NCBI GenBank assembly: GCA_004123355.1
Contig: SCHM01000001.1
Location: 3,898,001-3,962,000 of the forward strand
DNA length: 64,000 nt
Direction: 5' to 3'
From: Amphirosellinia nigrospora
Taxonomy: Eukaryota; Ascomycota; Sordariomycetes; Xylariales; Xylariaceae
How positions within the stretch are numbered: the first letter of the stretch is position 1; each line of letters begins with the position of its first letter. The translations under genes and the position numbers were made by a program. Shown in pieces: positions 533-63,683 of the stretch. The notes under the pieces were generated by a model. The model saw only the letters and a program-made list of their open reading frames with translations, had not been told where the DNA came from and ran no database searches.

Positions 533-2265
533 ATGGCAGACTACCCGCCTGAGATCACGGCCGACGAAGGGGCTAGGTTGACCGAGGTGACAAAGGACTG
601 GGCGCTTGCCCATGGCCTCACAGTTCGGCCACCTCCTGCTGTTATTGCTACTGAGGCAGATCCTCAGAGTATACTGGCCACCGCTGTCCCAGTAACCCTG
701 TTTCCCAGCCCCTTTCCAAAAGTCTGCTTTGAACAAGGCATTGCTGTTCAGAAGGCGTACAACGAGCTCTATGCCTCTATCAGCCAGGACGAGGAGTTCC
801 TAGCCCGAATAGTAAAAGAGTATGTCACGGAAATTATAGATAGAAACGTTACATAATGGCGCATAGCTGGAGACGTTGAAAACTCCCTTAGAATCTAGGC
901 TAACAGGCCACAGGATAGGAGACAGCGATGACTTTATTACGGAATTATGGAAAGTGCACTTACGCGTGAAGGGAGAGGGCTATGTACAAGTATGTGCTCC
1001 GCCACCTACTCCCATCGTCAACATATTAACCAGCTGATATAGCACAAAAGCCTAGGTCTATTCAGGTCAGACTACATGGTCCATCAAGACGGGGCTGGCT
1101 CTGGGCCGCAGATCAAACAGGTTGAGTTCAATACCATAGCCTCATCATTCGGAGGTCTCTCATCTCAAACCTCTCGGCTTCACAAGTCAGCAGCCCACAT
1201 TCCTTTACTTCATTGCATTACGCTAACGTAACTCAGATATCTCTCATCTACTGAGTACCCCTTGCTCGGCAAGTCGATTCCAAGAGATGCTCTCGACTTA
1301 CCCCCAATGACAGTGCAGCGGGCCTAGCATCCGGAATCCGGGAGGCCTTCATCTCCTACGGCGCCTCAGGCACCGGGCATGGCAAATGCGTCATCTTCTT
1401 AGTCCAAGACGGGGAGCGCAACGTTTTCGACCAGAGGCATCTAGAATATTCCCTCCAATCATCCACCGATCCCGTAATCCCCGTCTTCCGGCTGCCATTT
1501 TCCGAGATACAGCAGCGCACTCGTCTCGCCGAGGGTTCTGGCCGGCAGCTCTTGTACACGCCGCCGCACCTGCAAGCGCATACCTTCGAGGTAGCCGTGA
1601 TATACATGCGGTCGGGGTACGGTCCAGGCGACTACCCAGACGCTCGGGCCTGGGAAGCGCGGTATCATCTCGAACGCTCAGCTGCGATTAAGTGCCCATC
1701 GATCCTGACGCAGGTCGCGGGGACGAAGAAGGTCCAGCAAGTTCTTGCGACACCTGAGACGCCTTCGAACCCATCCATATTAGGCCGGTACTTGTCTTCG
1801 AGTTCTTCGTCGTCTCTATCTGCTCTGGCTGGCACGTTCACGAACATCTACCCGCTCGACACTAGCGAGGCGGGCCTCAAGGCGCGGAAGATAGCTACCG
1901 ACCCCGAGCTTTGTAAGGGCTACGTCCTGAAGCCCCAGCGAGAGGGTGGCGGGAACAACATCTACCGCGCCGCGATCCCTCCGTTCCTGAAGGGCGTGCC
2001 CGATGCCCATTGGCCGTCGTACATCCTCATGGAGCTAATCACGCCGCCGCCAGTCCGTAATACCATCTTGCGAAACGGCAAGCTGGAGCATGGCGGCGTG
2101 ATCTGCGAGCTTGGAATCTACGGTACGTGTATATGGGACCAGCAAGCGAAGACCATCTCGCACAATCAGCAGGTCGGGTATCTATTGCGGACCAAGGGTG
2201 ATCAAAGCGAGGAAGGTGGGGTGGCTGCTGGGTTTGGCTGCATGGACAGCTGCGCGCTGGTTTAA
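533..2265 (+). CDS. gsh2: Glutathione synthetase (four exons, one apparent frameshift)
   Basis: Eukaryotic-type glutathione synthetase, which joins glycine to gamma-glutamylcysteine with ATP in the second step of glutathione synthesis in the cytosol. Exons are 533-819, 914-989, 1043-1185 and 1237-2265, with GTATGT, GTATGT and a weaker GTCAGC donor and CTAAC-type branch points. Diagnostic segments are the N-terminal ITADEGARL block, FRSDYMVHQ and VEFNTIASSFGGLS in exon 3, GYVLKPQREGGGNN (the ATP-grasp glycine-rich loop) and the end GGVAAGFGCMDS. Total is about 510 residues, normal for fungi. The frame changes at a run of five C at 1301-1305: before it the frame reads STEYPLLGKS...LDLPP, after it NDSAAGLASGIREAF. 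One missing C explains it. Either a sequencing error or a recently broken gene; conservation on both sides favours error. Confidence 0.9.
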
Positions 2266-2712
2266 GGTATTTAGTTATCAGGGAATAGTGAAGTTAGAGT
2301 TAAAGGGGCCCTTAAATATGAAGGTTTACCAGAGCTTCCCTGTAGCAAATATATCAAAAAACATACTTAGAATAAACCGATTCATTAGATGAGACTGCTT
2401 CAATTGATCTCACATCATCAAAATGGCGGGTATTACACTCAGTCCTTAATATACAGCGTCCATGTTCCATCTTCCCTCCCACCCAGAGGAACAAGTGATC
2501 TTATATCTATCTCCCTCCCTTCCCAAGTCGTACAATGTACAGAGGACAAAGGAGACAATCATCGAGTGGGGTGTAGTTGAGCTCTGAAGAGAAGTCCAGT
2601 CCATCGGGGCGTCGTGCCCGAACCGTTGCTTGATAGGGCTATTCCTTGATTGACTTATAGCCACATCACTTAGGCGGTAATTTTTTAATTCTCTTGGCGT
2701 TGTTAAAACGGT
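2266..2712. other. Convergent 3' spacer between gsh2 and rim1
   Basis: The two genes point towards each other, so this should hold only 3' UTRs and terminators. I see no supported coding sequence. Confidence 0.5.
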
Positions 2713-3389: not shown

Positions 3390-4531
3390 CTTGATCGATT
3401 CGGCGGCGATGCGCGATTCGGCGGAGGTTTGTCCGGTAAGGTTCGTCGTGTGTTGTGATGTGGTGGAATCTATTTGATCAATTGACTGGTCTGGTGGTTG
3501 GATATTTCGGTAGGGTATCTAAATTAATGGGTAATAAAATTGGACGGCGGAACGCACAGTCACTCTGCCACGGTATTTTGCAAACGGACGCGCGACAGCG
3601 GGGTTCAAACATAAACCATCAAATTCGTACCCAATCAGAGTTCGAGTAGATATGTTAGCATGAAAATACACCTCGCACAGCATGCTGCATTTTAGCTTCA
3701 AGATTTACAGTAACAAGTTGTCATAGAATTCAGCCTCCTCTAATTTTTTTTTACGGTTGTCTACTACTATATCCATGCCTCATTAATACTCTGCGATGAC
3801 AAGCTGTCCAGAATTTAGGTTAGCTACCTAGGTAGTTGGCATATGTTGTTATGTATTTAGTTAGAGGTGAAGGTCTTTCACCTTTATTAATGTATTATGA
3901 CACTCTACAATCGACTTCACGCAGTCAGAATACATCCCATCTGGGACAACAAAATCCAGCTACCTAACAACACCGATCAGCAAGTATCATGACGCAGCGA
4001 ATATGCCCCGCCATTTATATGATATTCTAACGACGTTTGTAATTTTTTTATTGACTGAGTCATCTCTGGTAAGATAAAAACTGCTTAGTTGCTTGTTTCC
4101 TATTGTTATCTTTGTTTTTGATTTTTGATTTTTTCATGTATAATTTCTCAACGGCCTGGAGAGAGTAGAGAATAAACATTATCGTGTACGTAAGGAGAAA
4201 TTGCTTGCTCGCACACCATCCATGCCGGGGCTCACATAATTACGTCGTCAAAAATACTGTTGATAGACGCCGCGCAATGACTGTAGACGTAAGGGTAACC
4301 TTTCTCTAGGCGCCGTCGGTTCTCCAAACGTCCTGTCATGTTCGTTGCCGTGGCCACCCAGCTCTTCTTGGTAGACAGAGACTGTCTCCGATCACCGAAG
4401 ACTCGGAATTCTGCATGCCCTGAAACGGTTCCAGCCATTTCTTTATTCGGCAACACGTACAGAACCACGCCGCTGCCAGGTTTTCCGTCGCCTCGGTGTC
4501 TGCGTGTAGAAGTAGAAGGGGTGAGGTGAAG
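3390..4531. other. Intergenic spacer
   Basis: Upstream of rim1 and downstream of the SET-domain gene. It is AT-rich in 3700-4200 and contains a GCTACCTAGGTAG motif near 3823-3835. An open frame on the minus strand at 4232-4468 has no protein-like composition and is probably 3' UTR. Confidence 0.4.
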
Positions 4532-10631: not shown

Positions 10632-11611
10632 ATGTCCACGGAGCCGATAATTGATGACGAATATGCCTCTGAGGACGACTCGGATTTTGCGCCTGGCGCT
10701 GCGCCCGCAGAGGATGGATCGGAGTCAGAATCAGAAGCAGAAGCAGGGCGCGACAAAGCAACTGATGCAACACCCAAGAGAAAGCGGGTAAACGATGATG
10801 CAGCCGAGGGCGATTTCGATAATTCAGGCGACGAGACCATCATACAAAAAGGGAAGAAGCGCCAAAAGAAAGCCAAACGAGCCGAAAGAGACGTCGAAGA
10901 AGGAGGCGAAGGGGCCTCATCAAGACAAGACGGCAGCGTGCGCTAGAGAAGGCAGAGCGGAAGTCGCATGCAGTTAGCGGACCGGTCACTGTTGATGTGG
11001 ATGACCTCTGGACACAGATGATCGCCGCACCGCTCATACCCCCAAGAATGATGCACAACAGGACAAGGAGAATCAACAAGGCGGCGCCGAAGTGGCTGCA
11101 GATGCTGCAAAGACGACCGTGGTGACCTCGAACGGTACCGATACTTCAAGAATGGTCAAAATCAAGCGCACGTACAACTTTGCTGGCAAGGTCCACACAG
11201 AAGAGAAACTAGTTGCCCGCGACTCGGCCGAAGCCAAACTCTACCTCGCCTCCCAGGACCCAAACCTCGCCGAAGCCGAAGACGAACAGCCGAAACGAAA
11301 ACCACGTAGAGCCTTCCGCTCCATCTTCGAACCCGTCAATCGAAGGATTAGCTGAGCGTGCCGATCTAAAGCTCGGAATGAACATACGGTTGGAACTTCG
11401 TGAGCAGCAAGCCAAAGCTAAAAAGCTCAACGTCGTCGAGAAAAGCCGTATGGACTGGGCTGGCTTTGTGGATAAGGAGGGCATCCAAGCCGAGCTCGAG
11501 CTTGCGGGCAAGTCAAAGGAGTCCTACGTGAGTCGGCAGGACTTCTTGCAGCGCGTTGAAGCCAATAAGGAGGAAGAGGCAAGACGAGCACGGATGGCCG
11601 GCCGTGGATGA
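10632..11611 (+). CDS. swc5: SWR1-complex subunit Swc5 (BCNT-C protein)
   Basis: Swc5/CFDP1-type component of the SWR1 remodeller that exchanges H2A for H2A.Z in the nucleus. Acidic N-terminus (YASEDDSDFAP, many E/D/S) with a lysine-rich patch, then a TRRQRALEKAER segment, VDDLWTQM, VKIKRTYNFAGKVHTEEK, and the C-terminal BCNT-C domain with VEKSRMDWAGFVDKEGI...ELAGKSKESY..RQDFLQRV and the end EEARRARMAGRG. Three frame changes interrupt it: missing base at GGGG 10911-10914, missing base near 11030-11031, and one extra base at CCC 11332-11334. After these corrections the single exon is exactly in frame, 326 residues. No intron signals are placed at these points. Swc5 is a single-copy gene, which argues against decay. 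Confidence 0.88.
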
Positions 11612-13111: not shown

Positions 13112-14835
13112 TTACCAATTATCGAAGTTGCCAAAGCCGCCCGTTTTCGGTTTCTTCTTCACCGGCTCGTCCCAAGTGTCGAGATCCTCTTCTATAACCT
13201 CGTCATCTGCGCTTTGGTGTAGCCGGGCCACTTTGAGATACTTGCCTACGCCTACACTGCCACTGTTCTGATCCACTGCACCGTCTGCTCTCACTCGTTT
13301 GCCAGTCCATGTCATCTTATCATCCTCAGTACCGCCTGTTCTTGCAATTTCTGCCTTAGCTTCTTCAGCTCTATCGCGTTCAGTCTTTTGCTTTTGAAAC
13401 TCTTCAAAGGGGTCCAAGTAGACGATGACTTCTTTCATCAAGATTTTGTTTAGTGGCCGGTCTGAACCATCTGTTTCAACCGCTTCCATTTTACTCAGAA
13501 CGTCCATACCGCCAACAACCTTGCCGAATATGGTATGTTTTCGGTCAAGATGTTTGGCTGGTCGGTATGTGATGAAGAACTGACTCGAGTTGGTATTCTT
13601 CCCCTTGTTGGCCATACTTAGTATCCCGCGCGAGTCGTGAGTGTTTGGGCCATCGAATTCGTCCTGAAAATTCTTTCCCCATATACTGGCGCCACCTCGT
13701 CCAGTGCCTGATGGATCGCCGCCCTGGATCATGAAGTTCTTGATATTTCGATGAAAGGCAACGCTCCTGTAATAACCTTTTTGGGCGAGTCGAGTGAAGT
13801 TCCACACTGCGCGTGGCGCATATTCGGTGTATAGTTCAATATTTAAATCACCTAAATTTGTTTCGATTCGTGCATATCCCGTATCTTGACACGTTTGGGC
13901 TTCAACATGTACTCTTCGTCCGTTAATACCGCTCGCTCACCACTGGTCTCGGGCGTCAGCCCCGTACTTGTGAAGCTCGCTGCGGCTCTTCCCGTTGTAT
14001 AGACTGCAGCATTATAGGCTGTCTTTTTATCTTGTATCATGCTTGGATTTAGGGCGCCGTTTGCGCCAGTCTTGACGAGGGAGGTCGATGAGCGATTGAT
14101 ATCTCGGCCAGCTTCGCGCTCCCGCCTCGCCTTATCGACTGCTTCTTTTGCTCTTAGGACTTTGTCGCCGACCCTGCCCAGCGCGCCAATGTTGACGTTG
14201 CCCTCCTTCCGCTCCTCTTCTTGCTCATTTGTCAACAAGGCGCTCTCGCCGTCCTGGATGTACTTGAATTGACTTAGGTCCCTACTAGTCGCATTCTGGG
14301 GATCTTGAAGTGTAATGATATCCGAACGGCCGAACTCGACGTCATCCATCAGATCTCGCCACATCTTAGCCTTAATGTTCATCCTCTCGATCGTGTCATA
14401 GGCGAAGACATTGGCATAAGTTCCATGTCGAACCGCAACAACATGTGTGTTGTCTGTGAACACCTTAAAGGTGACGGGGTCTATAAAGTCCCCTTTCCCA
14501 TCGCTCCCTGTGCCATCGGCAGCTTTACTGTCGACGTCTGCGTTTCGCGCAAAGTTCAGCTTAATCAGGTCACGAGCAGCGAGGGGCTGTCCGTCGACGG
14601 GGTTTGTCTTCTGTTTTTCAAGCCATTTTGCGATGACCTCGGCATCAAAGATAGTGCCATCGGGAGTACAAACCGGGTTCTTGAAGGGTTGGAGGCTTGC
14701 GGCGCAAAAGTTGAAGGGCAGTCGTCGGAAGGGAGCGCCAGTCGCTTTGGATCGAGAACCAGTATTGGCAGAGAAGGCGTCGGAGGAGGCCCACTCGGAG
14801 TGTGTGATATAAAGCTTGTCTGTGCCTTTGCCCAT
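13112..14835 (-). CDS. cyp8: U-box/cyclophilin peptidyl-prolyl isomerase Cyp8 (PPIL2-like)
   Basis: Spliceosome-associated cyclophilin with an N-terminal U-box (E3 ubiquitin ligase fold); human PPIL2/CYP60 relative. Single exon, 574 residues once one base is restored. U-box part, residues ~35-105: LPFNFCAASLQPFKNPVCTP, AEVIAKWLEKQKTNPVDG, then DPVTFKVFTDNTHVVAV. Cyclophilin domain, from ~residue 322: NLGDLNIELY, FHRNIKNFMIQGGDPSGTGRGG, NSSQFFITYRPAKHLDRKHTIFGKV. The position equivalent to Trp121 of CypA is His (AKHLD), as is common in PPIL2 proteins and expected to lower cyclosporin affinity. The C-terminus is KKKPKTGGFGNFDNW. The frame change lies between VKIR and GYARIETNLGD at CCC on the plus strand, 13878-13880. 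Divergently paired with the 7-TM gene at 15487. Confidence 0.92.
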
Positions 14836-17963: not shown

Positions 17964-19623
17964 TCAAGCATTTACATCCCCACCAAAGCCGACCGGCCGT
18001 CTCTTCCCGGCGTTCTCAGGCAGGATGGCGAGGGCCTTGTAGACCTTGCCCATGCCGCCGGGCCCGCGATCGACGAGGCGCTTCCAGGCCTTGTCGATCT
18101 CGGTCTTCTTGGCGTCGTCGCCGGCCTTGTCCGCCAGCATCTGGGCGCGCTGGGCGATGCCCATGCTCTCGAGGAAGTGGGCCTGGTCGACGGGGCCGTG
18201 GCACTCGACGCCCTCGCTCGCGCGCGTGGCGGCCTCGACCAGCGCCAGGAAGTCGACGTCGGCGCTGAGGTCGACGAGCCCCGGGTCCGCGAAGGGGCTC
18301 ACGCGCGCGTGCCGCCGGATCCCGCGCAGCGAATTCGTCGGGATCGTGTCGGCCGGGCCGTAGTCTAGGATCAGTGCCGCGCCCGAGGGACGCGGCTTGG
18401 GGTTCGCCTGGGACCCGCCGATGCGCGCCGCGAAGTCCGATGCGTATAACGATGCATCTGGACATACCTCGATCAGCGCGTCGAGTGTGGATCGCAGCGC
18501 GCGGTACCGTGGGGATGCCTCCGGGAGATACATTGCGTGCCGTGTCTGTGTAGGGCTGAGCGTGAGTTGAAATTCTGGGACGGGCTCGTGTTGTGCGGAT
18601 TTCGGAGTGCCCAGGTCGGCGTGAGTGGTACCCTCAGGGGTGGGCGAGACAACCATTTCTCGCCACTGCCGTGTTGGGGAGGAAGTGTTGGACGAGGCGG
18701 AGCGCGGGCTGCCGCTTGATGTCATGGGCTGCTGCGTAGGCGGTACTTGGACGACCTGGAAGGCGTGGATGGGGAGTGCATCGAAGAACTCGTGGGCTAC
18801 GATGAAGGGCGTCTTGCTCGCGTACTTCGGCACGGCCTTGATCGAGTCCGTCCAGACGATGGGCATATGTGAGTATTTGCATGTGCTGTGCCAGCCCTCC
18901 TTTGACTCCCTCATTGCGGCATCTTCGCCGCAGAGGAGGTTCTGTTGCGCCACGCGCAACTCTTTACTCGCCTCGACCATGTATACAGCGTCGATAGCAG
19001 ACGCCATATCCTTAAAGTTCCGAATTGTCTATAAGGTAGGGAAGTACTTAGCCGATCTATACACATAGATCCAAGCTGGCATTATGGATTGAGACATATA
19101 CTCACTCGTAGTATATCGTCCATCAACGTGCCTCGGCCTGGGCCGACTTCCATGAGCTCTACACCCGATCGCGGACGGCCCTGGGACATCCATTCCGCCA
19201 CGAACCAGATACCAATCAGTTCGCCAAAGACTTGGGATATCTCGGGCGACGTGATGAAGTCACCCCTTTGTCCGAACTGGTCACGGCCTGGTTCAATGGC
19301 TCCCGTGTAGTATCCGCCGACATCAGCTGTGAGACACATGCGCATGTAGCTTGCGAGCGGTATCGGGCCAGTAATCTGAGATTGTTAGCTTCTTTCATAT
19401 CCCTCTCTCTCTTGGGATGATACGCAAAGGAATTGCATACATTAATAGCCTCAGCTAATTGCTTTGCCAGTGGTGTCGACCATTTTCTCTCCTCCTCTCT
19501 CCGGGCAGGTGTTGCTGATAAGCTCCTCGAGCTCTGGTACGTGAACTTTGGAGCTTGGGATACAGGCCTGCGGCGCGTGCATCTGAACCCTGCCTGGGCT
19601 GCGCGAAGAATGGTTGACCTCAT
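17964..19623 (-). CDS. ndufaf7: NDUFAF7 homologue, mitochondrial protein-arginine methyltransferase
   Basis: MidA/NDUFAF7-family SAM-dependent methyltransferase that dimethylates an arginine of NDUFS2 early in complex I assembly in the mitochondrial matrix. Exons on the minus strand are 19623-19441, 19375-19106 and 19028-17964 (1518 nt, 505 residues, fully in frame). The N-terminus [20 protein letters not shown] is a clear targeting peptide. Family blocks: [53 protein letters not shown]-binding [39 protein letters not shown], and the C-terminal [11 protein letters not shown] Ser/Pro-rich insertion (about 50 residues after [10 protein letters not shown]) is unusual in length but typical of fungal loops. 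The 3' part is strikingly GC-rich (18000-18450), higher than its neighbours. Divergently paired with the CDK11-type gene. Confidence 0.93.
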
Positions 19624-20053: not shown

Positions 20054-21489
20054 ATGGCGAGCAAATCGCGCTGGGCCAATACCGAAGAAGACACAGCGCT
20101 AGAGGCCAAGCTTAAGAAAGAGAAGGAGGAGAAGAAGCGCCTTAAAGCCGAGAAGGCGGCCAAAGCAGAACAAGAAAGGCAACGCGCCGCCGCCGAAGCA
20201 GCAGCGCGAGAACGAGAATCCCAAGCACAGCAACAGCAGCAGGGAGAGGAGGCAGAAAGCGACCGACCACCCGCGAAACGACGGAAAATCACACCCGAAC
20301 GAGAAGATGGGGGCACAGGCGATACCGAAAATACGAAGCTCCTGCGCTTCGAGGCTGGCGGCGGGTGGGCGCCCTCACGCAGCGTCGAGAACTACGACAA
20401 ACTAAACGACATCGAGGAGGGCGCGTACGGCTGGGTAGCGCGGGCGAAAGAGATCCGGACGGGCAAGGTCGTGGCGCTCAAGCGATTGAAGCTCGATACC
20501 ACCGAATCGACCCAGACAGGACTGCCCGAGACGGGCCTGCGGGAGATACAGATCCTAAAAGACTGCTCGCACAAGAACATCGTCAGACTACAGGAGGTGG
20601 TGGTGGGGGAGGACACATCGCGCATCGAGAACATCTTCCTCGTGCTCGAGTTCGTCGAGCATGATCTGAAGAGTGTCCTCGAGGACATGCCGGAGCCATT
20701 CCTCGCGTCCGAGGTCAAGACGCTCCTCCTACAGCTGGCAAGCGGTGTGGCCTACCTGCACGAGAACTGGATCCTGCACCGGGACCTCAAGACATCGAAC
20801 CTGCTACTCAACAACCGGGGGCAGCTTAAAATCGCCGACTTCGGCATGGCGCGGTACGTGGGCGACCCGGCCCCGAAACTGACCCAGCTGGTCGTGACGC
20901 TGTGGTACCGCGCGCCGGAGCTGCTGCTCGGGACGAAGACGTACGGCGCACCCATCGACATGTGGAGCGTGGGGTGCATCTTCGGCGAGATCCTGACGCG
21001 GGAGCCGCTACTGCCGGGCAAGAACGAGGTCGACACGTTGACCAAGATCTTCGAGCTCTGCGGCATCCCCACGGACGAGTCGTGGCCCGGGTTCCGCCGC
21101 CTGCCCAACGCCCGCTCCCTCCGTCTGCCCTCCTCTAAGAACGTGCCCGCTTCTTCCACTGGCTCCATCGTCCGGGCCAAGTTCCCGCTCCTCACGGCCG
21201 CCGGCAGCGGACTGCTCTCCGGGCTCCTGTCTCTAAACCCGGACACTCGGCCGACGGCCAAGGAGATGCTGCAGCACGAGTATTTCCGCCAGGACCCTAA
21301 ACCCAAGCATGAGGCTATGTTCCCCACGTTCCCTAGCAAGGCGGGCCAGGAGCCAGGAGGCGACATGACACGCCTAATGCGCCAGGTAGGGGACAAGCTG
21401 CGGCTTTGGGCGCCGTTGACTTCACCGGTATATTTGCTGGCCGGGACAAGGAAGAACGAGGTGGCGGGTTTTCGTTACGCATGGTTTGA
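20054..21489 (+). CDS. cdk11: CDK11/PITSLRE-type cyclin-dependent kinase
   Basis: Nuclear Ser/Thr kinase of the CDK11 group, linked to transcription and splicing. Single exon. Residues 1-80 are a highly charged coiled-coil-like leader (EAKLKKEKEEKKRLKAEK, poly-Q) ending in a basic KRRK signal. Kinase domain: Gly-loop IEEGAYGWVARA at ~120, VALK Lys143, PETGLRE (the PITSLRE position), HRDLKTSN with catalytic Asp244, DFGMAR Asp262 and VVTLWYRAPELLLG. After SKAGQE the frame shifts once at CC 21353-21354; the restored tail (TPNAPGRG, AVDFTGIFAGRDKEE, GFSLRMV) is the conserved CDK11 C-terminus, with TGA at 21487-21489. The unshifted frame runs 67 nt further with an unrelated tail. Corrected length 478 residues. 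Confidence 0.93.
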
Positions 21490-29467: not shown

Positions 29468-32191
29468 ATGACGCAAGACAAAATGACCCTAGAAGATTGT
29501 AAGTTATCTTAGTCCAGTCAGCAGTCCATCGTGTTTGAATGGTCAATGGCAATGTAACTACTGGCATTGCCATCGGAACGGCCACCTCACTCAATTTGAA
29601 TAACAGATTCCTAACAGCGACTTCTAGGGCTGGACGACCTATGCGTCCGCTTCATCATAAACCTCCCCGGGAGGACCTCTCATCAGTAGCGCGAATCTGC
29701 TTTCAAATTGAGGAAGCGCAATGGTTCTACGAAGATTTTATCCGACCCCTAGATCCTGCCTTGCCCTCCATGTCATTGAGGACCTTCAGTCTCAAGATGT
29801 TCCAGCATTGTCCTCTTCTCGCGTCCTTCTCCGCCGATATCCACCTGAAAGCCTTCGATGAATTTATGCAATACAAGACGCGAGTCCCCGTTCGAGGAGC
29901 CGTAATGCTGAACGACGCCATGGATGCGGCAGTTCTTGTAAGGGGCTACAAGAAAGGAGCTAGTTGGAGTTTTCCCCGAGGGAAGATTAATAAAGACGAA
30001 GACGACGTCGACTGCGCGATCCGAGAGGTTTACGAGGAGACAGGGTATGACCTCCGTGCAGCTGGCCTGGTCGAGAAGAATGCACCTGTTCACCCCCTCG
30101 AGGTTACTATGCATGACCAGCAGGTGCGGCTTTATGTCTTCCGAGGCATTCCGGAAAGCACCGTATTTGAGACCAGGACAAGGAAAGAGATAGGCGACAT
30201 TCAATGGTATAAGCTCTCGGACTTGCCCACTTACAAAAAAAGAAAGGTGCCGGCAAAAACCAAGGGCCTACAGCATCTTCTCAGGAGAGATTCTACATGG
30301 TTGCGCCGTTTATGGTGCAATTGAGGCAATGGGTTCTGAAGCAGAAGAAGACGGACACGCAGAATACGCCAGTCTACACGGGGCATGAGCATCCGCCAAC
30401 TTTCTATGACGAAAATCTAACGGATGAAAATATGCTGCACGAGCCGCCACCGCCTGCTTCATCAAGCACGCATCCAGAGAACATCGACAGCGCAACCAAG
30501 GAGCTACACCGACTACTCCAAATCAAACCCCCTACACAGGGTCTTCAGCTTCCATCACCAACCTCGAACCAACAGACCGGGCAGGCGTTGTTGTCTATTC
30601 TACAGCCTAAGATAACCCAACCCGGATTTGCGCCGGGCCAGGGTTACGGCCAACTTCATCCTACCCAAGGCCAAGATTTTATGAACGTGACCCAGCACTT
30701 GCCACTTCACAATCATTACCAAAACCAAAGGGCACCTATGTCTGACTCTTCGGCGCCATCATCCTTCCACAACCACACGGATATCGGCCCTGGGAATTCT
30801 TATCATCAGCAGTATCTTGATCATAGGCCCCGGCCCCGGGTCTTCGTCACGAATGAAGTGCGTCCAGCCACGCACAAAACAGAGAAGCCTCCCATTCAAC
30901 TGCTTCACCCGCAACCCTTGCCGCCTCAGGTCCAAAAGGAGATGCTCTTGCGTGACCTACGCGAGATGGCTTCGTCGCCCAATGTTGCAGGCGCAGCTAA
31001 TCAACCTGGCCCTCTGAACGCAGCTCAGGGCCATCATGTACCCTCAAGTGTTCATTATCGAGCGCATCCATACCAAGGCAGCGACAATCATGAACGAAAC
31101 TTACCTCAGTTGCCTGCGCATTCTACAAACCTATTAAATGTGCTGAAAGGAAACAATCTACCAACTTCGGCGTCACAACATAACGCGCCAATCCGAACAG
31201 AGGGCCAACGGCAAGGGCAACGAATCCCCACATCTGAGGCCGGATTTCATGGCCAACACGGTGGCGCGTCTTTACAACCAGCTACAATCCCCGCCGCCAC
31301 CATGAATGCTCCGGCCCCCTTTTCACGCGGCGGCAACCGCCCTGTTGCACCAACAGACCAGCATCGTGCCTCGCTGTTAGGTTTGTTCAGGACTGGACAG
31401 TCCAATGTACTCCAGAGCCAGATAGATGGCCAAGGAGCATCGTTCCCAGCGGCCATTCCTCAAACTAAGCATTCCGAGTCACCAAATCAACAACGCGTGA
31501 GGCAAGGCCTATCTACTGCCGAGGTTTTAGAGGCCGCCGCCAGGGAGAACGGGCAGCCCATTAAATGGAATCCTGAACTCAATCTACCTTATGGTGCGCA
31601 TTCCATCTTACGCCGTGGGCCAGCCAAGGATCGACTCGTAGTCCCACGTATCCACACGGAAGTCAAACGACGCTGCGATGCAATTACCTGTGCGATCTCG
31701 CCCGAGCCCAGCGTCATCACGGGGCCAGATGTCCCCGAGGTCAGATGTCACCGTACCAGAATTACCTGAATGCCAGGATACAGTCTCCAAAGCAAGCAGT
31801 CGCCCAAACACAGCTGCACGCGGCGCAGTCTTATTCATATGCTAGTAGTCAAGGTAACGTGGCGAAGCCTCCAACGGAAATTCAGGGCTCGCCATCTACC
31901 TCAACGCTCCCTACACCCAACATGGTCAAGCCCCGACAAAATTCGACCGTGGAGCACAGGAACACATTACTATCCATCTTAGGGAAGTCACAGCCGGAGG
32001 CTAGCCAAAGCAAGGGCAAGGATTCGGTTGGGCCCGAACATATGTCTACTAGTCCTAAGCCAATGCCGCGATCTCGGGCCTCGTTTGCTTCCCAGGGGTC
32101 TAGGCGTAATAGTGTGACGCCTCTATCATCCGCGGATCGGAACTTCTTACTTGGCTTCTTAGAGAACGCTTCGAACAATACAAAGAACTGA
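29468..32191 (+). CDS. dcp2: mRNA-decapping enzyme Dcp2 (at least three frameshifts)
   Basis: Catalytic subunit of the Dcp1-Dcp2 complex that removes the m7G cap in cytoplasmic 5'-3' mRNA decay. Exon 1 is 29468-29498 (MTQDKMTLED), exon 2 29628-32191. N-terminal regulatory domain: WLDDLCVRFIINLP, FQIEEAQWFYEDFIRP.DP. Nudix domain: RVPVRGAVMLND, WSFPRGKINKDEDDVDCAIR and EVYEETGYD (the Nudix box GX5EX7REUXEEXGU is complete), then GDIQWYKLSDLPTYKK and RFYMVAPFMVQLRQW. The long Pro/Gln/Ser-rich C-tail contains short motifs like LLNVLKGN, LLSILGKSQ and LLGFLENA, typical decay-factor binding peptides. Frame changes: CCCC 29665-29668, GGGCC 30264-30268, and a net minus-one somewhere in 31600-31740 before MSPYQNYLNA. 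Corrected sum 2598 nt, 865 residues. Confidence 0.92.
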
Positions 32192-42257: not shown

Positions 42258-44031
42258 ATGGCTAATACCTCGCTGGATGAGGAGCGGCCTCTCCTTGCCG
42301 AGTCCTCGCCTCCAAGGCCAGACGAGAATGGACAGGCACCACAGCCGGAACACGGGCGTCTGGAAGATGACGTACTACCCGAAGAATCGACACTGGGACG
42401 AAACATCGGCTGGAAGAGCGCATACATCATCGCCATAAGCCGTGTCATCGGGAGCGGGATATTCGCCGTGCCAGGCGTCATTTTAAAGTCGGCCGGGAGT
42501 GTTGGTCTGTCGCTGGCGCTCTGGGTCGGCGGCGCCATCATTGTGGCCGCTGGCTTGGCTGTCAGTCTCGAATACGGATGCATGTTGCCGCGCTCGGGCG
42601 GTGATAAGGTCTACCTGGAATTCACTTACACGCACCCGCGCTTCTTGGCGTCGACGCTCATCGCCGTCCAAGCCGTCTTGCTTGGTTTCACGGCCAGCAA
42701 CTGCGTCATCTTCAGCCAGTATACCTTCTTCGCCTTCGACTCGGACCCCGGCGACGCGTGGAGGAAGGGGCTGGCCGTCGCCGTGCTCACCGTCATCACC
42801 GTCATACACGGAGTGTGGTATCGGGCGGGCATCCACATCCAGAACGTCCTGGGGTGGTTGAAGGTCGGGCTGGTGGTTTTCATGGTTCTGTCGGCGCTGT
42901 ACGTTGTGGTCTTCCAACCGTCGCACGACGACCTCGAGGAGCCCACGGCGTCGTTCGCACGCGATAACTGGGACGGCTTGTGGGAAGGGAGTGACTGGAG
43001 CTTCGGGACGATCGCCACCTCCCTCTTCAAGGTCTTTTACTCGTATGCGGGGCTCACTAACTTGAACAACGTTCTGAACGAAGTGAAGGACCCCGTCAAG
43101 ACGCTTAAATCGGTGTCCTTGTCGGCCCTCGTCACGGCTTGTTTCCTCTATTTGTTAGCGAACCTCGCCTATTTCGCGGTGGTCCCCGTAGAGGAGATCA
43201 AGCAGAGCGGTCAGCTCATCGCCGCGCTCTTCTTCGAGCGCGTATTCGGCCAGAACGTGGGCAGGCGGTTTCTCCCCTGGCCGTGGCGCTCTCGGCAGCT
43301 GGAAACGTCATGGTTGTTACATTTCCTTGGTAAGCTCGTTTCGATCATGGGCTTATGTGATGGTTTGCTAATTTAAACAAAAACGTACTAGGCGCGGCTC
43401 AATCAGGAGATAGCAAGAGCGGGATTCCTCCCGTTCTCGAGATATCTCTCGTCCTCGAAGCCATTCAATGCACCTATGGGCGGTCTGATCGTCCACTACA
43501 TCCCCTCCGTCCTCGTCATCGTCCTCCCGCCGACGAATGAAGTATACTCCTTCATCTTAGAAGTGGAGGGGTATCCGGGTCAGATCTACGGTTTTGCCAT
43601 TACCGTCGGCCTCATCTGGCTGCGCTACAAGCGACCTGATCTTAAACGGCCGTTCAAAGCCTGGATGCCGGCCGTCTACTTTAGAGCTCTCCTCTGCCTC
43701 GCGCTCTTAGCAGCGCCGTTCTTCCCGCCCTCAAACCCGGATCCTGATGGGCTATGGTATGCTACATATGCTGTTGTTGGGGTTGGCGTGTAAGTACCTT
43801 CCTTTTCTCTCTAGTGTATTCCGATCATTGAGTTTCCACATGTGGAAGCACCGCCATCTAAGTGATATCCACTAACATTATGCTTGTAGTATCGTTTTCG
43901 GAGTGTTATATTGGTTAGTATGGACTGTCATCTTACCACGGCTTGGCGGTTATAGATTAGAGGAGAAACAAGACGTCTTGGATGATGGGACCACTATCAC
44001 CGTGTTGACACGAGTGCCCAAGGCTGAATAA
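42258..44031 (+). CDS. Amino-acid permease, high-affinity methionine (Mup1/LAT) type
   Basis: APC-superfamily transporter of the fungal LAT/Mup1 group, plasma membrane. Exons 42258-43329, 43392-43789 and 43890-44031; 537 residues after two single-base corrections. A 50-residue acidic cytosolic N-terminus (ending LPEESTLGRNIGWKSAYIIA) leads into TM1 with the helix-breaking signature VIGSGIFAVPG. About twelve hydrophobic segments follow, including VGLSLALWVGGAIIVAAGLA, VFYSYAGLTNLNNVLNEVKD (substrate-site region) and GQIYGFAITVGLIWLRYKRP. Frame changes are at CCCC 43273-43276 (restoring LPLAVALSAAGNVMVVTF) and within about 43322-43328 just before the donor (restoring the ALARLNQEIARAGFLPFS junction). 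Substrate by family: methionine or other neutral amino acids. The final exon ends TVLTRVPKAE. Confidence 0.88.
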
Positions 44032-50675: not shown

Positions 50676-52539
50676 TTATTCTCGGGAGACATCGCGGCCA
50701 TAAAGCTTGGCCTTGACCCAGTCAAGAGCCACAAGAACACGATTGCGCGCTAAGAAGTCGTTAATATAGTCCTAAATGATGCATAAAACAAAGAGACTTA
50801 CTGCTAAAGCACATGCTTAAGTAGGCACTTCGCCAGAAAAGGTAAGTCAGCTTGCCGCCTGAAGCGACATTGCCATTCAACCAGGCAATATCGGCAACAG
50901 CCTTCTCGCTACCGATATAAGCTAAGCTACCTTGGTGTGAGTAGTGGAAAGGCTTAACATCCTTGACGCGGCGCAACTGCTTCTCAAGCCCCTCAATCTC
51001 TGCTGCGATCTCAGTGACATTACCAGGCTTTAAGTTCAGATTGGAACTCAGATCGTGGATTCGGCTCTCAAGCGCCTCAGTCTTAGCCATGTTGTTGAAT
51101 AAGCGCGCTAGGAAACCGCCCTCCTGCGCAGCAACCTGTGCTGTAGGGGCATACCCAGCGACAGCGCAATCGCCAACGGCCCAAATATCGCGTGCGCCCT
51201 GAACAACGAGATACTCGTTCACAGCCAGACCACGTCTCGAGTCCTTCTGAGCTGGGATTTGAGACATGAGATCCTTGACCAATGGGCGAAGCGCATTGCC
51301 AGTAGCCCAGACTAAGAGACCGTAGGGAATAGTGATAGTGGATTTGCTGCCGTCAGGATTCGTAGCCTCAGCCTCGACGGTTTTGTCTGTGACCTTCTTA
51401 ACCATCGTCTTTGTCTTGATCTCGATATGCTCCTCCTTGAACGTGCTTTCGGTGTAGTCAATAAGCTGCTTGGAGAACATGGGCAAGACGGTAGGCAGAG
51501 CTTCAATTAGAGTAACCTTGAAACGCGGGGAGATTTCGGGGATCAACTTCTTGATATCCTCGTCAAAGAAGTCACGTAGCTCGCCGGCAAACTCGACACC
51601 AGTGGGCCACCGCCGACAACGACCATGTGCAGCAGGCGATCAATTTCGGAAGAATCCTGGTCCTTGAAAGCGGCAGTTTCTACGCAGTCCATGATCTTGG
51701 TTCGGATGGCCTGGGCGTCGCGAATCTCCTTCAGGAAGCAGCTGTGTTCGCGGACACCGGGAATGCCGAAGGTAGCATTCTCGGCACCGACGCCAATGAC
51801 TAGCATGTCGTAGGGGACTTCAGTTTCGTTGATGGTGCCTTTGATGTCGCTGTTGTCAGAGATCTTGATAACCTTTCGCTCGTAGTCGATCTTGGTAGCC
51901 TCGGCTTCGTAGAACTTGACGGCAGCTTTCTTATGACGTAGGATCTGGCGGATGGGTTCCATGATAGAGCGATGCTCGATGTTTCCGGTAGTACATGAGG
52001 GCAGCAGGGGTGTGAACAGGAAGTAATTACGGGGAGAGATGACAACAACATTGTAGTTAGCAGTGTCGAGCTTCTTTAGGAGGAGAGACAGAGCCCCAGC
52101 CGGATCCTACAGACGGCCATGTGCCGGGTTAGTCATGGCAAGGCTGGGGACGGATTTGGGAGGCTTCGAACGCACCTAGAATGACCAACGTCTTCTTCTC
52201 AGGATCAGGGGTGAATTGGTCATCGGGATTGCGATCTGAGTAGCCGTCGTAGATAATAGCGCCAACACCAAGAAAGAGCGATAGATAAGATGCGCGCCAC
52301 AGCCATTTCAAGCTGGTCCGGATCTTGCCGCGCTTCTTCCTAGGAGGCGGCGCGGCAGCATCAGCGTAGGAGCGGGCGAATTGGCGAGAGACAGCAGGGC
52401 GGGCAGCGTTCGAGATGCCTATGGGCGATCTAAGAATTGGTCGTGTCGCAAAGTTCGCATACGGGCGGACGGCTTCAACGACGGACAGCCGTGTGGCGGC
52501 CACGCCGAGGCGAGTCACAGCCCTTGAAGACGACGCCAT
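50676..52539 (-). CDS. Alternative (type II) NADH:ubiquinone oxidoreductase, mitochondrial
   Basis: Rotenone-insensitive single-subunit NADH dehydrogenase of the inner mitochondrial membrane (NDE/NDI family). Exons 52539-52176, 52106-50802 and 50749-50676; 580 residues. The leader (MASSSRAVTRLGVAATRLS..., then RQFARSYADAAAPPPRKKRG) targets mitochondria and precedes a membrane segment (YLSLFLGVGAIIYDGYSD), favouring an external NDE-type orientation. First Rossmann: TLVILGSGWGSVSLLKKLD, NYFLFTPLLPSCTTG; second: HMVVVGGGPTGVEFAGELRD; FAD/quinone region: VWATGNALRPLVKDL, DIWAVGDCAV, APTAQVAAQEGGFLA, PFHYSHQGSLAYIG; tail VLVALDWVKAKLYGRDVSRE. No EF-hand insertion is present. Frame changes: one missing base at 51599-51603 and one extra base near 52080-52090. 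Start at 52539 chosen over 52551 because the next Met begins the targeting peptide. Confidence 0.92.
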
Positions 52540-55987: not shown

Positions 55988-58900
55988 CTACCTGCCTTGA
56001 GGCGCGGTTGACGCTGGCATTTCTCCGTATCTTCCTCTGCCCCTTGTTGTATCGTAGGCGTTGATGACACGCGTCTGGCTTTCATCGGCCTGCGAGAAGG
56101 CGTACCCGCGTTGTTTTCGCATTCGCTGTACCTGGCGAACCTTTCTAATTGCCTTCTGGAATTGTTCCATCCTGTTATTGTTTAGTCAATGAACGCATTC
56201 TTTATGATGGGAGGGATTCGCGGGGCGGGCTTGACCTACCTTGGACGATAGTCCTGAATATTGTACTTCTGGATCTCCTGGATATGGTGGTAGCTTCTTG
56301 GGTAGTACATTCTCTTCACGTACTTCCAAGCCACATCTCGGATGAGACAAGCAAGAGGCAAGAATATTGTCTGAATATAGAAGTTCGGACTGGTGAAGAG
56401 TACAGGTATAATACCGCGTAACTCGGTGGAAACATTGACCATCACGGAGCAACGATGCCGTAGGCGGCGATAAAAGCAAACCAGAAAAGCAAGCTTCCTG
56501 GTATAGCTATTACGTGATATTTCGTCCAGTTACTCGTAACTAGCGCAGCCTTGCCAAGGACAGTTGCCAAAACAGAGGCATATAGGCCTGTGCCCCAAAG
56601 CCAATGACCTCCAATCGTACCGTCGCGGAGAACGCCATCGCCGGACCAGATAAGTTCCGAGAAGATATACAGAATAAGGGAATGGTAAAATGCATTCGCA
56701 ATCCAAGCAGCAAATGTCTTAATCTTGAAAAACTCGTTGCGTTGCCCAGCGGTGTATAGCTGCGGGTACCGATCGAGCAAACGAGCCGAAACGTACTGGT
56801 CTAGAATACCAATTGCGAGAGGTGGCAAGACCGTGAAGAAGACGTTGTAGAAGGAAAGCATCCAGGATTCGTATATGATTTCACCGGAGAACACGTTTTG
56901 GAAAGCATACTAGAACACGTTAGCTATGCCCATCATCGGCAGCATATAACAAGACTTCGTCGTTAGTTGACCCCTCTACATGGATCATGGGACTAGATTA
57001 GACATTTAGAAACCAACTTACCCAAAACTGCGTCTGATAAAGGGCAATGTTCTTGTAGAACGAAAAGAGGATGGTCTTGCTAATACGGTGGTAACTCCAG
57101 GCCCCGTGGACCAACGTGAGTTTGCGGAGAAATCGAAACTGGCCTATTGACACATCCGCAGATCGAGCTGCCTGAAGGCCTTCGACGCCCGAAATGCCTA
57201 CACCAATATGAGCGGCCTGGATCATAGACACATCGTTTGCACCATCGCCAATAGCGAGGAGGATCTCGTCAGAGAATTTTTTAACCAGCTTGACAACTAA
57301 AGCCTTCTGAAGTGGAGATACACGACAGCAGATCGGCCACATGACAGCGAGATCAAAGAATAGTTTCTCCATTTCGGGTTCCAGGGCGTAAGTGAGAGAT
57401 TTGCCGTCGATAACGAGAGCTAATGTATCCATCTCAATCGATCCTTCAGCATTGTTCCTGATGGCCTCCAACTTCTTCTGGATATTTTGACGTGTAGCAT
57501 TCGCGTCCTCTTCGTTGACGATGGGAGCATCATATCCTCGCTCAAGAGCTTAGAACTCATACCGATATTGATAGCGGTCTCTTGCCGATCTCCAGTCAAC
57601 ACCCAGACCTTGATATTGGCTTCTTGTAGCGTGTGAATGGTTTCCGGTACACCGTCTTGGAGCCTGTCCTCGATGGCAGTAGCGCCCAGTAAGTATAGGT
57701 CGTGTTCAATGATTTCGGCCGCCTTGTCAAGCTCATCCGCTCGGTTGCCACCTATAGTTGTTTGGGCTTTCTCGAACATAGCTTGCCATTCTTGGAATTC
57801 ATGATCAGGAACCTCGCGCATGGCTAGACAGAGAGTACGTAAGCCTTCAGCAGCATACTCCTCCAAGTGTAGAAGTGTTTGCTCAACATGCGGGTTGTCA
57901 TTATTGAGACGTTCTAGAATAACTGTATCGGCACCTTTACAGTATAATCGAATCTTCCATCGGGACAACGATAAATGGTGGACATCCGCTTTCTCGTTGA
58001 GTTAAACTCGCATACGGCTAGAAGCTCATACTCGAACTGTTGACCAGCCACCTCGATAATGACAGTTCGAGGCTTACGAGCAATGAAAGCATACCCCATG
58101 CTCACGGCACCCTGAACGAGAGCACCTTCATCGGGGGATGCGGCTTGATACTTTATCTTGCCGCCATTCTTTTCATCTCGCTCTGGGATACGGTATGGCA
58201 TGTGGATAAGAGGGCCAAGAAGTGATGAATAGCCTCAGAGGTCTGGTGTGATTTAAGGTTTTCCGCGAGTTGCTTAAAATCGTGAATTCCTACTTCCACG
58301 CCATCCTGGGTAGCTCGCCTGTCCTCAGGAACCTCTTCTGCGTACTGGATGCCACCAATTGAACACTGTTTGAACTCCATCATGTTACATGTCAGAGTTC
58401 CAGTCTTATCAGAGAAGACGAATCCCACCATGCCTAGCTCTTCGACTAAACTTGATGTCCGACAATTTGCTGGCGTATTTGTTTGATCGTAGTAGATGTC
58501 GAGATCATCGTTAATGAGAATGCCATGCCAGTATTTGACTAACTCCACCGTCACAAAGAGTGAGATCGGAACCAGAGATGAGAACAATACCCAATACGTG
58601 ACAAGATCTTTAAAGATAGCCTGGACAACCACGCCGGCTCCATCCAAGTTGTCCAATCGGATGTAAGACGGAGTCGTTAGCGACAGCACGGTATACCAGG
58701 TCTCCGATGGTACAAATCGAACTAAGTATCAAGAGAAGTCCAATCAAAGCAAGCACAAGCTTGTTGAGTTGTCGCTCAACCTTCGTCCGCTTGATCGGTG
58801 GCTGTTGCGTTGCGCATCAACTTTGTCTCATGACCCGTGAAAACAACTATACCGTGAATCCACGGCGTATTTCGGAGGGTAGCGCCTCGGAGCAATAGCT

Positions 58901-60217
58901 GTTCTGGATTTAATGGCAACTCCTTCTCTCCACCACCAGCCTGCATGGTCAGTGTCGCTTCGTATGTGTAGAGGCTACTGTTAGGTTGCTCTGATCGGAC
59001 CCTGCCGCCCAATCTACTCAACTCAGCGGGACTGACTAGAGCCGATGTTTCGGGGAGACCCTGCTTAATTTTGAGATTTGTTTCGCCATCGAGGTTGGCC
59101 GTCTCAATGTAACATAAGCCTTCGGGTTCAGAACTCGCGAGAAGCACCATGTCAGCAGGAAACGGTTCCTCAGACTCGACCCGCACAATATCCCTACCGC
59201 TACGTTGATCCAGCTTGTCTCTTCAAAATTCGATCCTCTCAGGACCCTAGCCTTTGAGTTGTTCAGAGCACTATCTGCTTGCTTCCTCCTGTAATCTTCG
59301 ACAAGCTCCTTGGCGGCGGAAATAAGTAACACTACGATGAGAGGGCCGATGGTAGTGTACTGGTTTGTGGGCGATAGCCCAGGGATTTGCTGCAATCCCG
59401 CGGTGAATAAGAAAAGACGTTCGCAAATTTGGAAACTGTTCAATTAGGAACTTGGGTAAGAAGGTAGCAACATTATATTTGGCAGTGGAGACGTGATTAT
59501 CGACGTATTTGTTGGCCGTGTTCGCTGGCGGGTTATTGAGATGTATGATTCGGGTCCCAACGACGAAGGGTCTGGCTTGCCGCTGCCGAAACCGAATTTG
59601 AAGTTCTTCAACTCGAATTTTTTGCTCTGTTTCGCTTGCGGAGTGGCCCCTGATGAATCTGTCCGTTCGTGTCTTGGGTCGGTCAAGGGGAGGTCCATCT
59701 CTGAGTAGCCTTGTCCCATACCCAGCATGCTCTTTGCCTTACCCAGAAAGCCGCCCCCAAGTCCCAATACACTATTTCGGCTCCGTGCATTCACACGTCT
59801 GGTATCATCAGGGCCGCTCATAGACCCCCCGCCATGTTGGTAGTATGATTGGTCATCGTCCGGATAGTCGTCAAAATCGTCTGCATACCTCCGATAGTTA
59901 TTTAGGTCGGAGGTCTGACTATATTGTCTATCGTTTTCGGCGATGTAAGGGGGCCGCGGACCTGACCCATGAGCGCCAGGCGCAGGATTCTTTACACTCG
60001 GATGAGTTGCCTGGCTATCACTACCGATGAAATCATCGTAGGAGACGGATTGGCGCGAAGGGAATTCGTTGCCGGGGTTGTTGGTGTTGTAGGAGCGAAG
60101 CAGTTCGTCGTCATTCACCGGTGCGCGTTGTCCGCCATAGGCAGGCTGGTCGTCGAGATCAAGAAGAAGGTCATTTTTCGAGTGGGAAGAGCCTCCGAGA
60201 GGCGCCCTTCCCGCCAT
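55988..60217 (-). CDS. drs2: Drs2-type P4-ATPase (phospholipid flippase), ten frame changes
   Basis: Trans-Golgi aminophospholipid flippase of the Drs2 group, moving PS/PE to the cytosolic leaflet for vesicle budding. Exons 60217-57022, 56909-56240 and 56171-55988, about 1351 residues. Cytosolic N-terminus MAGRAPLGGSSHSKNDLLLD, then RIIHLNNPPAN, TM1-2, VESEEPFPADMVLLASSEPE and ETANLDGETNLK (actuator domain), FSDKTGTLTCN (phosphorylated Asp), KYQAASPDEGALVQGA, YCKGADTVILERL, VWVLTGDRQETAINIG, IGDGANDVSMIQAAHIGVGI, the TM5-10 block and the C-terminal MEQFQKAIRKVRQVQRMRKQ, SQADESQTRVINAYDTT. Frame changes: about 59552-59554, 59433-59435, 59412-59415, 59192-59194, 58796-58803, 58689-58692, 58188-58193, 57956-57957, 57523-57525 and 56443-56446. 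Eight are single missing bases; all key motifs are intact. Confidence 0.93.
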
Positions 60218-62328
60218 ATCGCAAAGGAGAGAGAAACTTATACAGGGATGAGAATCGAAGACATGGGAAATTCAGGAAGTAACGGCTTGCTTTGGGGTTG
60301 AAGTTACTGAGTTTCTGGGTTTCAGTTTTACGCGACGGCTCAAGGCAAGATGATCGATGACAGATGGCTGGGCGGTACGGTGAAGGTCGTGTCGCAAGAG
60401 GACCAGGCTATGGCTGTGTCGAGAAAAAAGACAGACGGCTGCACGCAATACGAGATGCCCGGCCCGCAGGCGTCCTGTAAGAGAATCGACGTGGAATTAA
60501 GCAGCCTAAACGGGACTGGGGCGGACTCGGTAGTCAGGCACTTGCAGTACAGGCCAAATAGTGTATTACACTGCTAGCGGTCAAACAAAAGAATGAGGAC
60601 TGAGGACTGTGAACTGGTGATGCAGACGTTAGAACAGCTCAGTGAAGGTACAATCAATGCAGTTTTCTAAGTTGTAACGTACAATGCAGGTGCAGGGAGA
60701 CAGACAGGTCTGCAGATGGGCCAAAGGACGGCCAGTTGATGACATGTAATCGGGAGGTACCCCAGTTGATGGGTGAGTACCTGATAGGTCGACTGCTAGG
60801 TAGCGCAAAGCCGTTTTGTTTCGTCCATCTACACAGCCTCCGAAATGGAAGTGTACCTGCTACACCTACTACACTCTCTCCCTAATCAACTGTTCAGGGC
60901 TAAGGCACCTGCGAAAGGGACCTCGGGACTACTTACATGTAACAGCTACCTGATGCAGGTGTCTGATTGGACAAAAGGGAAGTATTGGCCCCAACGTTAA
61001 CATTAGGTACTTTTTCAGATACATCCCCTTGCGACATCACAAGTGTTGGGGATTGATCGTGACGAAGATGTGGTTGGGAATTTTTAATGTAGAATTCTAT
61101 ACTAGACCAACATTGCCAATACCCCAAGACATGTCTATAATAAAGCTTCTGCTTAGATATGTGAGGAATGTGCTTAGCCCAGACGCGCACGAGTAAGTAC
61201 ACTAGGTACTTAAATCTGTGAGACGTCATCTTTGAGGCGCAATCCGCCATGTGCAATCAAAGCTTAGGCGCTCATTGCTAGAATCTCCCCCAACGGCAAA
61301 GGACGTAATGCCTTACGGTACCTACTACATAGCGGAAAATTCCAGGGCATTAGAGTCTTCGCTTAATCTTTCCCTGCTTCGCATGGGCATGACGGAAGAC
61401 TGGGATAGCAGGCGACATCGTTGACCATCGTGAAGCCCAATAAAACTATCGACTTCCAGCACCGTTCGTCCAATGCTGTTGTCGGCCGCAATAAGCCCCT
61501 TGGGCGACTCCCGCAACAGTGGGCGCAGGCTCATCTATAGACCTTGTGCATCAGTAGTTAGAGCAGCGCGGATGTGCATGACGACGTGTATGGCCTCGAT
61601 CGAGACGGAGAAGGGCTGCTTCTGCGTGCCCTCATCCTGAGCTACCTCAGCACCATCTAAAGCGCTTCCCACCGTCCCTCGTCAAACTACAAGATACGCG
61701 CATGTCATATGCGCCTGACAAGAGTTTCCCCTGTTGCCCGGCGTCCTAGCCGCTATATCGGTCACCGCTAGAACGATGCATAAGAGCGACTACCTACTTT
61801 AGCTGTTGGAAGCGAAAATCTTCGCAGGTAGACGATGTTATAGACCTCAGACGACGGCGACATTGAGACCTATGAACCTAGATACTCCTGCTATTTCCAT
61901 GTCCTCACGGTTCTGTCAGCATGGGGACGGGACGGACAATCTGTGCTGCTAGAGTTCACAGTAGTTCTTCAGAATAATCTTATATTTTAAATTCGGGGAA
62001 ATCGTGGAATGTAGTGCTGGCTCTTGAACCACTACTAAGCTGACATGACGTTGAAAACACGGGGTAGATCCTGAATTATCAGTGAATGTTCAATCGGGGA
62101 CCAGTCTCAATTGTGGAAGGCCATACACCTCGCTGTGTAAGTAGGTAGGTATGTATTCACAACGTGGTACTCGGAATACCAATTAATTAATCACATGATC
62201 TTGAACTTTTAACTTTCCCAATTGCTTGATGGTGGTTTTTTTTTTTTTTAAATCATAACTCTCTAATTGGCTCCCTGGACCCCATTGCCCCTGTCCGCCA
62301 TAGCCATGGTCTATCATAAACCCAACTT
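60218..62328. other. Long spacer
   Basis: Promoter region of the P4-ATPase, then 1.5 kb of sequence without recognised genes. On the minus strand 61680-61325 a frame is open but for a single TAG (61536-61538); composition is only weakly protein-like. A T13-type run occurs at 62238-62250 in a region downstream of the hydrolase. Confidence 0.35.
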
Positions 62329-63683
62329 TTACAGAGCTGCCTTAAGGTCATCGCCGAGAACGCTCTTGATAAAGTCACCGATATGCTTGTTCACCTCGGC
62401 AGGCTTCTGAATCATAGCCCAGTGCGAGCAATCCGTCAGGATCTCCAGCTTGAAAGGGCCAGCAAAGTGCTGCTCCTGACCATTCGCCATCCAAGTAGGC
62501 AGAGCGGAGTCCTTATCTGCCATGAGTAGCATGCCAGGCATGGGGAACTTGAAGTTGTCGGCGGCCATGACCTCCTCGTCGGCCCCGTTGAGCTCACGGG
62601 TCCTATACCAGTTGCAGGGGCCATGGAGGCCGTGGCGTGAGAACTCCTGCACATAGTGGTCGATCATCTCCTTGCTGACGAGCGGGCTTTGGCCGATGCT
62701 ATCGATGTTCTCCTCGAGGACGCCGTGGCTGACGGCGAACACGGGCTTTCCCTCCGGCGTCGTGCCGCCGTACAAGCCGTTGAGGAAGGCTCGAAGACGC
62801 TCGGGCGACTTGGATACGATCTCTTCTGCTCCGCCACCGGCGAGTTGCAGCTGGTATGTGAAGTTGGGCATCTTCGCGACTAGCTCCGGAAGGGACATCG
62901 AGACCGAGGATGGCGGTAAGAACGGCACGCAGACCGAGAAAACACAGCGGATCAGCTCTGGGTAGTACTGTGCCATGCGCCTGTATTATTTTATTGTTAA
63001 TTATCAACTCCAGGCAATTTACGAGGGATCAGCATAAGTAACAAGCCATGGCTCATAACGCAGCGCTCAAATGTAAGTGAAAAGGGGGATACGTGGCTTA
63101 CCAGACGAATAGGCCACCCCAATCATGTCCGCCTAGGATGATCGGCTGTCAGTGACTTGTTTGATGACCTGAACCATCTGAGCCGTCATCTTCTTCATCG
63201 AGTACTCTTTATATGAGTCCGGCGCATCGGTTTGCCCGTAGCCCAGCATGTCCGGCACGACAACCTGCAGGTTCAGAGATAGCAAGTAAGGCACCTGGTT
63301 GCGCCATCCCATTCCAATATCCGGCCTATATACACCAGTCAGCTTCCACATAATCACTTGATAGGACACTAGCATACCAGCCGTGAATGAGCAATACTGT
63401 AGCCGTTGGCGTGCCAGCAGGTTTCGCTAACATGTAGTGGTATTTGACGCCATCTACTTCAGCGAACTTGTGCTCGACCCGTGGGTCGTTGGGAGCGAGG
63501 GAATCCACCATCTCGTCCTTTGGAACAGCGGTACTTGGTGAATGAATTAGTACCTTATCGAAAGAATTCCATCTCACGAGATAGTATGAAGCAGCAATGT
63601 GAGAAGGATAAAATGTTACAAGGGAAATATGGTTCGTTATCATATCTCATGTGTTTCACTCACCTGGGATCGAATAAACTCAT
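62329..63683 (-). CDS. Epoxide-hydrolase-like alpha/beta hydrolase
   Basis: Alpha/beta-hydrolase of the soluble epoxide hydrolase branch. Exons 63683-63664 (MSLFDP), 63533-63378, 63325-63102 and 62980-62329; 350 residues after one correction. Oxyanion-hole motif LLIHGWPD spans the exon 2/3 junction; LQVVVPDMLGYGQTDAP follows; the nucleophile elbow is ILGGHDWGG, where Asp is the expected attacking residue; the catalytic His sits in LTDCSHWAMIQKPAEVN; the acid is probably the Asp in LLMADKDSALP. The lid contains the WYRTRELN motif whose Tyr helps open the epoxide ring. Frame change between VIKQVTD and PIILGGHDWGG at GG on the plus strand 63144-63145. No targeting peptide. Detoxification or lipid-epoxide turnover is inferred from the family. 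Confidence 0.88.

Follow-up and report, generated by a model that had tools for sequence, protein, structure and literature searches.

The 64,000-nucleotide stretch analysed here (hereafter the window; C1:3898001-3962000) belongs to an assembly of 48,114,038 bases (48.1 Mb) in 11 contigs, with short introns and scattered 5S genes present in the genome. A scan of 50 ORFs in the window identified genes for glutathione synthase, a U-box and cyclophilin, a GOST 7-TM protein, a Methyltransf_28 protein, a protein kinase, DUF7137, Dcp2, Use1, an amino acid permease, an NADH dehydrogenase, BCNT, BRCT, an isochorismatase and a P4-ATPase. Together with the introns and the 5S genes, this gene content is suggestive of a filamentous fungus. 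Over window positions 1-64000, ARAGORN found no tRNA and no Rfam match was obtained at the gathering score, which left the window with no non-coding gene as a control. The window also carries three short tandem arrays and a palindrome, CTACCTAGGTAG, at 362-373 and 3824-3835 and at six weaker places; counted together with near copies (at most two mismatches), it occurs 8 times versus 1.8 expected by shuffling, and 8 or more were reached in 0 of 100 shuffles. Outside the window, two contigs are small (C2, 57,064 bases; C3, 18,134 bases), and a six-frame search of the whole assembly for COX1 (PF00115) at E 0.001 returned no match, so that this single search points to no mitochondrial contig.

The preliminary description of the window had reported that conserved proteins repeatedly continue in another reading frame. 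We confirmed this at all nine sites checked, four named in that description and five located here with protein templates; a tenth, probable site is listed last.

1301..1305, forward strand: frame change, one base short, in the glutathione synthase gene (coding frame score, three-frame reading, Pfam matches in ORFs of two frames)
13878..13880, reverse strand: frame change, one base short, between the ORFs of the U-box and the cyclophilin (coding frame score, three-frame reading, overlapping ORFs matching U-box and Pro_isomerase)
21353..21354, forward strand: frame change, one base short, in the protein kinase gene, downstream of its kinase domain (coding frame score with a thin margin, three-frame reading, kinase match)
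43273..43276, forward strand: frame change, one base short, in the amino acid permease gene (coding frame score with a thin margin, three-frame reading, profile positions 1-276 and 296-425 in two ORFs)
51601..51602, reverse strand: frame change, one base short, in the type II NADH dehydrogenase gene (two ORFs that meet at yeast chain residue 196, aligner -1 event, profile position 152 then 153)
57523..57524, reverse strand: frame change, one base short, in the Drs2-type flippase gene (residues 858 and 860 of the chain matched by different frames, aligner -1 event)
57954..57955, reverse strand: frame change, one base short, in the Drs2-type flippase gene, at the edge of a masked template stretch (aligner -1 event)
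58190..58191, reverse strand: frame change, one base short, in the Drs2-type flippase gene, at the edge of a masked template stretch (aligner -1 event)
59193..59194, reverse strand: frame change, one base short, in the Drs2-type flippase gene (yeast DRS2 residues 305 and 306 in different frames, aligner -1 event)
30211..30211, forward strand, place approximate: probable frame change in the Dcp2 gene near the end of the NUDIX part (HMM call only; upstream ORF matching Dcp2 and NUDIX)

At each of the four sites named earlier (4/4), the best downstream coding frame starts one base earlier than the best upstream frame, with thin score margins at 21353 and 43273. Reading the three frames by eye, which partly leans on the expected family sequences, showed the family sequence to be continuous across all four. 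Template-located sites were obtained with our own DNA-to-protein aligner, which allows introns, residue gaps and frameshifts and was run with solved relatives as templates. It placed four -1 events in the Drs2-type flippase (906 codons aligned) and one in the type II NADH dehydrogenase (416 codons aligned). The flippase events at 58190 and 57954 flank a masked template stretch of 75 residues, where only the net shortfall of two bases is firm, and a -2/+1 pair at 58799/58669 that adjoins a probable intron was left uncounted. For the glutathione synthase, the aligner placed no shift at 1301, the template being masked over that part; a +1 that it did place at 1122-1125 lies inside the same masked stretch, beyond its judgement, and was likewise left uncounted.

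Frame changes were also called ab initio, using a frameshift HMM whose training set, long ORFs, came from the sequence being analysed, both here and for E. coli. With introns allowed, 99.3 kb of coding sequence drawn from the window, 16 sampled stretches of 10 kb and 10 chaperonin-type loci yielded 55 shifts (0.55/kb), versus 12 shifts in 84.9 kb (0.14/kb) on 100 kb of E. coli K-12, a figure that may include abutting operon genes. With introns disallowed, the rates were 0.97/kb and 0.26/kb, respectively. By part, it called 8 shifts in 27.5 kb in the window (0.29/kb), 35 in 52.6 kb in the sampled stretches (0.67/kb) and 12 in 19.2 kb in the chaperonin-type loci (0.63/kb); the window is thus no worse than the rest of the genome.

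As a finder of sites within the window, the HMM was dropped, since, with introns allowed, it called just 8 shifts there, bridged three of the four named sites (1301, 13878 and 43273) with introns and called nothing at the fourth (21353); it was used solely for the contrast with E. coli. Four of its 8 window shifts lie near template-located sites and the others at 11341, 19510, 30211 and 63150. The earlier estimate of about thirty frame changes in the window is borne out as to the kind of change at the nine sites checked, but its size is not matched by the 8 shifts called with introns allowed, which are likely an undercount because the HMM spanned three of the four named sites with introns. Six genes had been described as free of shifts. 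This held under the HMM for the 7-TM, DUF7137, Use1, BRCT and isochorismatase models, where introns may hide some, but not for ndufaf7, which received one uncertain call at 19510.

To cover conserved families across the genome, we searched it with PF00118, PF00493, PF00012, PF00133 and PF00227, scoring the best candidates only, and joined runs of matches less than 1500 bases apart into groups, which do not always represent one whole gene. Among the matches listed, there were 47 groups covering 41.6 kb, with 45 junctions between neighbouring matches. The excess at a junction was taken as the DNA left beyond what the profile needs, after subtraction of profile overlap. A simpler junction count had given 26 shifts, which was too many, as some matches ran over into introns; 21 were left after overlap subtraction.

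Part of these breaks could be introns that had gone unrecognised, and 16 of the 45 junctions, with more than 42 nt left (52-68 nt in 14 of them), probably are introns. One other junction is borderline at 38 nt and seven keep the frame. However, the 21 counted junctions change the frame and leave only -31 to 8 nt, no room for an intron, and we consider it highly unlikely that unrecognised introns account for the breaks. Sixteen of the 21 are one base short and five are one base long, and the excess is exactly -1 in 11; two are weaker, spanning 46 and 51 unmatched profile positions. They are spread over six contigs (C1, C4, C5, C6, C7 and C8) and 15 of the 47 groups, at a density of 0.51/kb of conserved matched sequence, which is probably a lower bound because close pairs of shifts escape. 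At one HSP70 junction (L080; C7:1399918-1399927), the excess is -4 rather than -1, a longer shortfall than at the others.

Frame-changing groups occur among the chaperonins, MCM proteins, HSP70 and the proteasome. Six PF00118 loci are split; the four that we followed further correspond to CCT-eta, CCT-gamma, CCT-delta and mitochondrial Hsp60, and alignment of these genes over 481, 478, 491 and 469 codons, respectively, gave five -1 events and one -2 event. The Hsp60 event sits on two masked residues, and a +1 call in CCT-eta, at a stretch aligned as inserted residues and probably an intron, was left uncounted. Together with the two window genes, 11 events were located with templates in 3241 codons (ten -1 and one -2), a figure that represents no genome rate, as the genes were picked for being split. 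In line with the earlier claim that most shifts need one added base, 16 of 21 junctions and 10 of 11 aligned events are one base short; the other 5 of the 21 junctions are one base long.

Taken as assembled, these frames are broken, as they would be if the genes, locally or genome-wide, were truly damaged and decaying. Such mass pseudogenisation would be confined to dispensable or duplicated genes, whereas the chaperonin, MCM, HSP70 and proteasome groups are affected, CCT subunits and Hsp60 among them. Protein identity to solved relatives also stays high on either side of the breaks (e.g., 414 of 469 codons in Hsp60). Furthermore, the matches listed comprise 10 chaperonin-type (PF00118), 6 MCM and 14 proteasome groups, numbers that match one copy per expected subunit, with no spare copies seen among them. 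Since essential genes are broken, pseudogenisation does not fit, and we judge it very improbable.

We then compared the 11 template-located sites with resampled positions for their association with homopolymers. The longest runs within 4 bases of the sites sum to 31 versus 24.8 expected (reached in 180 of 20000 resamplings), and those within 7 bases to 33 versus 27.7 (536 of 20000). Runs of at least 3 bases lie within 4 bases of 6 of the 11 sites (3.0 expected; 1048 of 20000) and within 7 bases of 8 (4.8 expected; 968 of 20000). A looser set of 18 HMMER overlap intervals gave a run sum of 56 versus 48.2 expected (105 of 5000), and runs of at least 4 bases in 4 of the 18 versus 2.4 expected (1097 of 5000), which is not significant; these intervals did not always bracket the site, and the 11 template-located sites were used instead.

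A homopolymer bias is also what a mutator strain that had lost mismatch repair and accumulated real indels would display. Mutators, however, mainly affect longer runs, and selection would purge such changes from essential genes; here, numerous sites are in runs of just two or three bases and essential genes are affected, so that we find a mutator origin scarcely credible.

As a non-coding control, we examined the 5S rRNA genes. At least 33 matches occur in the genome, the best 47 of 2127 candidates having been scored; their lengths range from 115 to 132 bases, and we aligned every one of the 33. In 13 near-identical copies, chosen by eye from this alignment, bases are missing in 8, with 10 gap events in total. 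Nine of the 10 events fall in runs of at least 3 bases, which make up 22 of 120 positions, and the same run of five is short by a base in six copies. The 5S copies show a strong preference for homopolymers, the coding genes a moderate one. Substitutions are also present in these 13 copies, 10 letters at four positions, and some of the 5S differences may be inherited variants. Two of the 33 matches (L042, C9:107319-107445; L074, C4:7540864-7540995) stand out by having stretches, in the middle or the 3' half, that are inserted or diverged; they are possibly 5S pseudogenes.

The 5S copies also bear on the idea that programmed frameshifting or base-insertion RNA editing restores the frames across the nuclear genome. 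It would explain why the proteins continue exactly over the breaks and why most breaks need one added base. It would be expected to act in one direction and on coding genes only; we found instead both directions (16 short and 5 long) and 5S genes affected as well. No common motif was apparent by inspection alone at the shift sites, namely the window named sites and the chaperonin sites. Because the 5S genes are untranslated yet short of bases, translational recoding does not fit, while editing of 5S is not strictly contradicted; overall, we give this explanation next to no weight. A broader version, in which the DNA really lacks these bases and some general nuclear mechanism (insertion editing, or tolerant frameshifting combined with 5S editing) restores essential genes genome-wide, appears to us barely conceivable. 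It would, if true, add a new level to nuclear gene expression, but none of the present observations speaks for it.

Overall, the frame changes are best explained as errors left in the consensus of a long-read assembly that was not polished enough, the genes being intact in the organism, a reading to which we assign a probability of about 0.96. The preliminary description had likewise attributed them to residual assembly indels and not to biology. That attribution predicts a genome-wide spread, an involvement of essential genes, sites mostly one base short and shortened homopolymers in non-coding DNA, and all four were found. Combined with the chromosome-scale contigs, these observations point to an under-polished long-read assembly, and the frame changes almost certainly reflect uncorrected sequencing error and not biology. 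As the cause, we infer base-calling errors in long reads that polishing did not adequately remove. The consensus would then mostly lose one base, in or beside a homopolymer more often than by chance and, in the contigs tested, at a rate of one loss in about 2 kb of conserved coding sequence or higher; every such loss would cut a single real exon into two ORFs that overlap and lie in different frames. Several observations count against the error reading: the homopolymer link in coding genes is only moderate, 5 of 21 junctions are one base long, part of the 5S differences may be inherited, and the HMM called fewer shifts in the window than had been estimated. What is affected is the use of this genome and not the biology of the organism: gene prediction would yield many models that are truncated, split or bridged by false introns, and this assembly would mislead any survey of gene content, gene loss or pseudogenes.

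Errors of this kind are known from published fungal nanopore assemblies. Filamentous ascomycetes sequenced by nanopore at graded depth are reported to carry conserved-gene indels in and outside homopolymers, which become fewer with depth (PMC9453082). The present assembly shares such conserved-gene indels with them, nanopore and PacBio being indistinguishable here. For nanopore-only assemblies of Drechmeria coniospora, it is reported that most conserved-gene errors lie in homopolymers and alter the frame, that long-read polishing left errors in about one fifth of the genes tested, and that homopolymer lengths were put right with short reads (PMC7500977). In that study, polishing introduced more insertions than deletions, a lean opposite to the shortfalls that prevail here, which counts against the error reading. 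In other reported respects, the D. coniospora assemblies resemble this one, being chromosome-scale, fungal and marked by frame-altering errors in conserved genes (PMC7500977).
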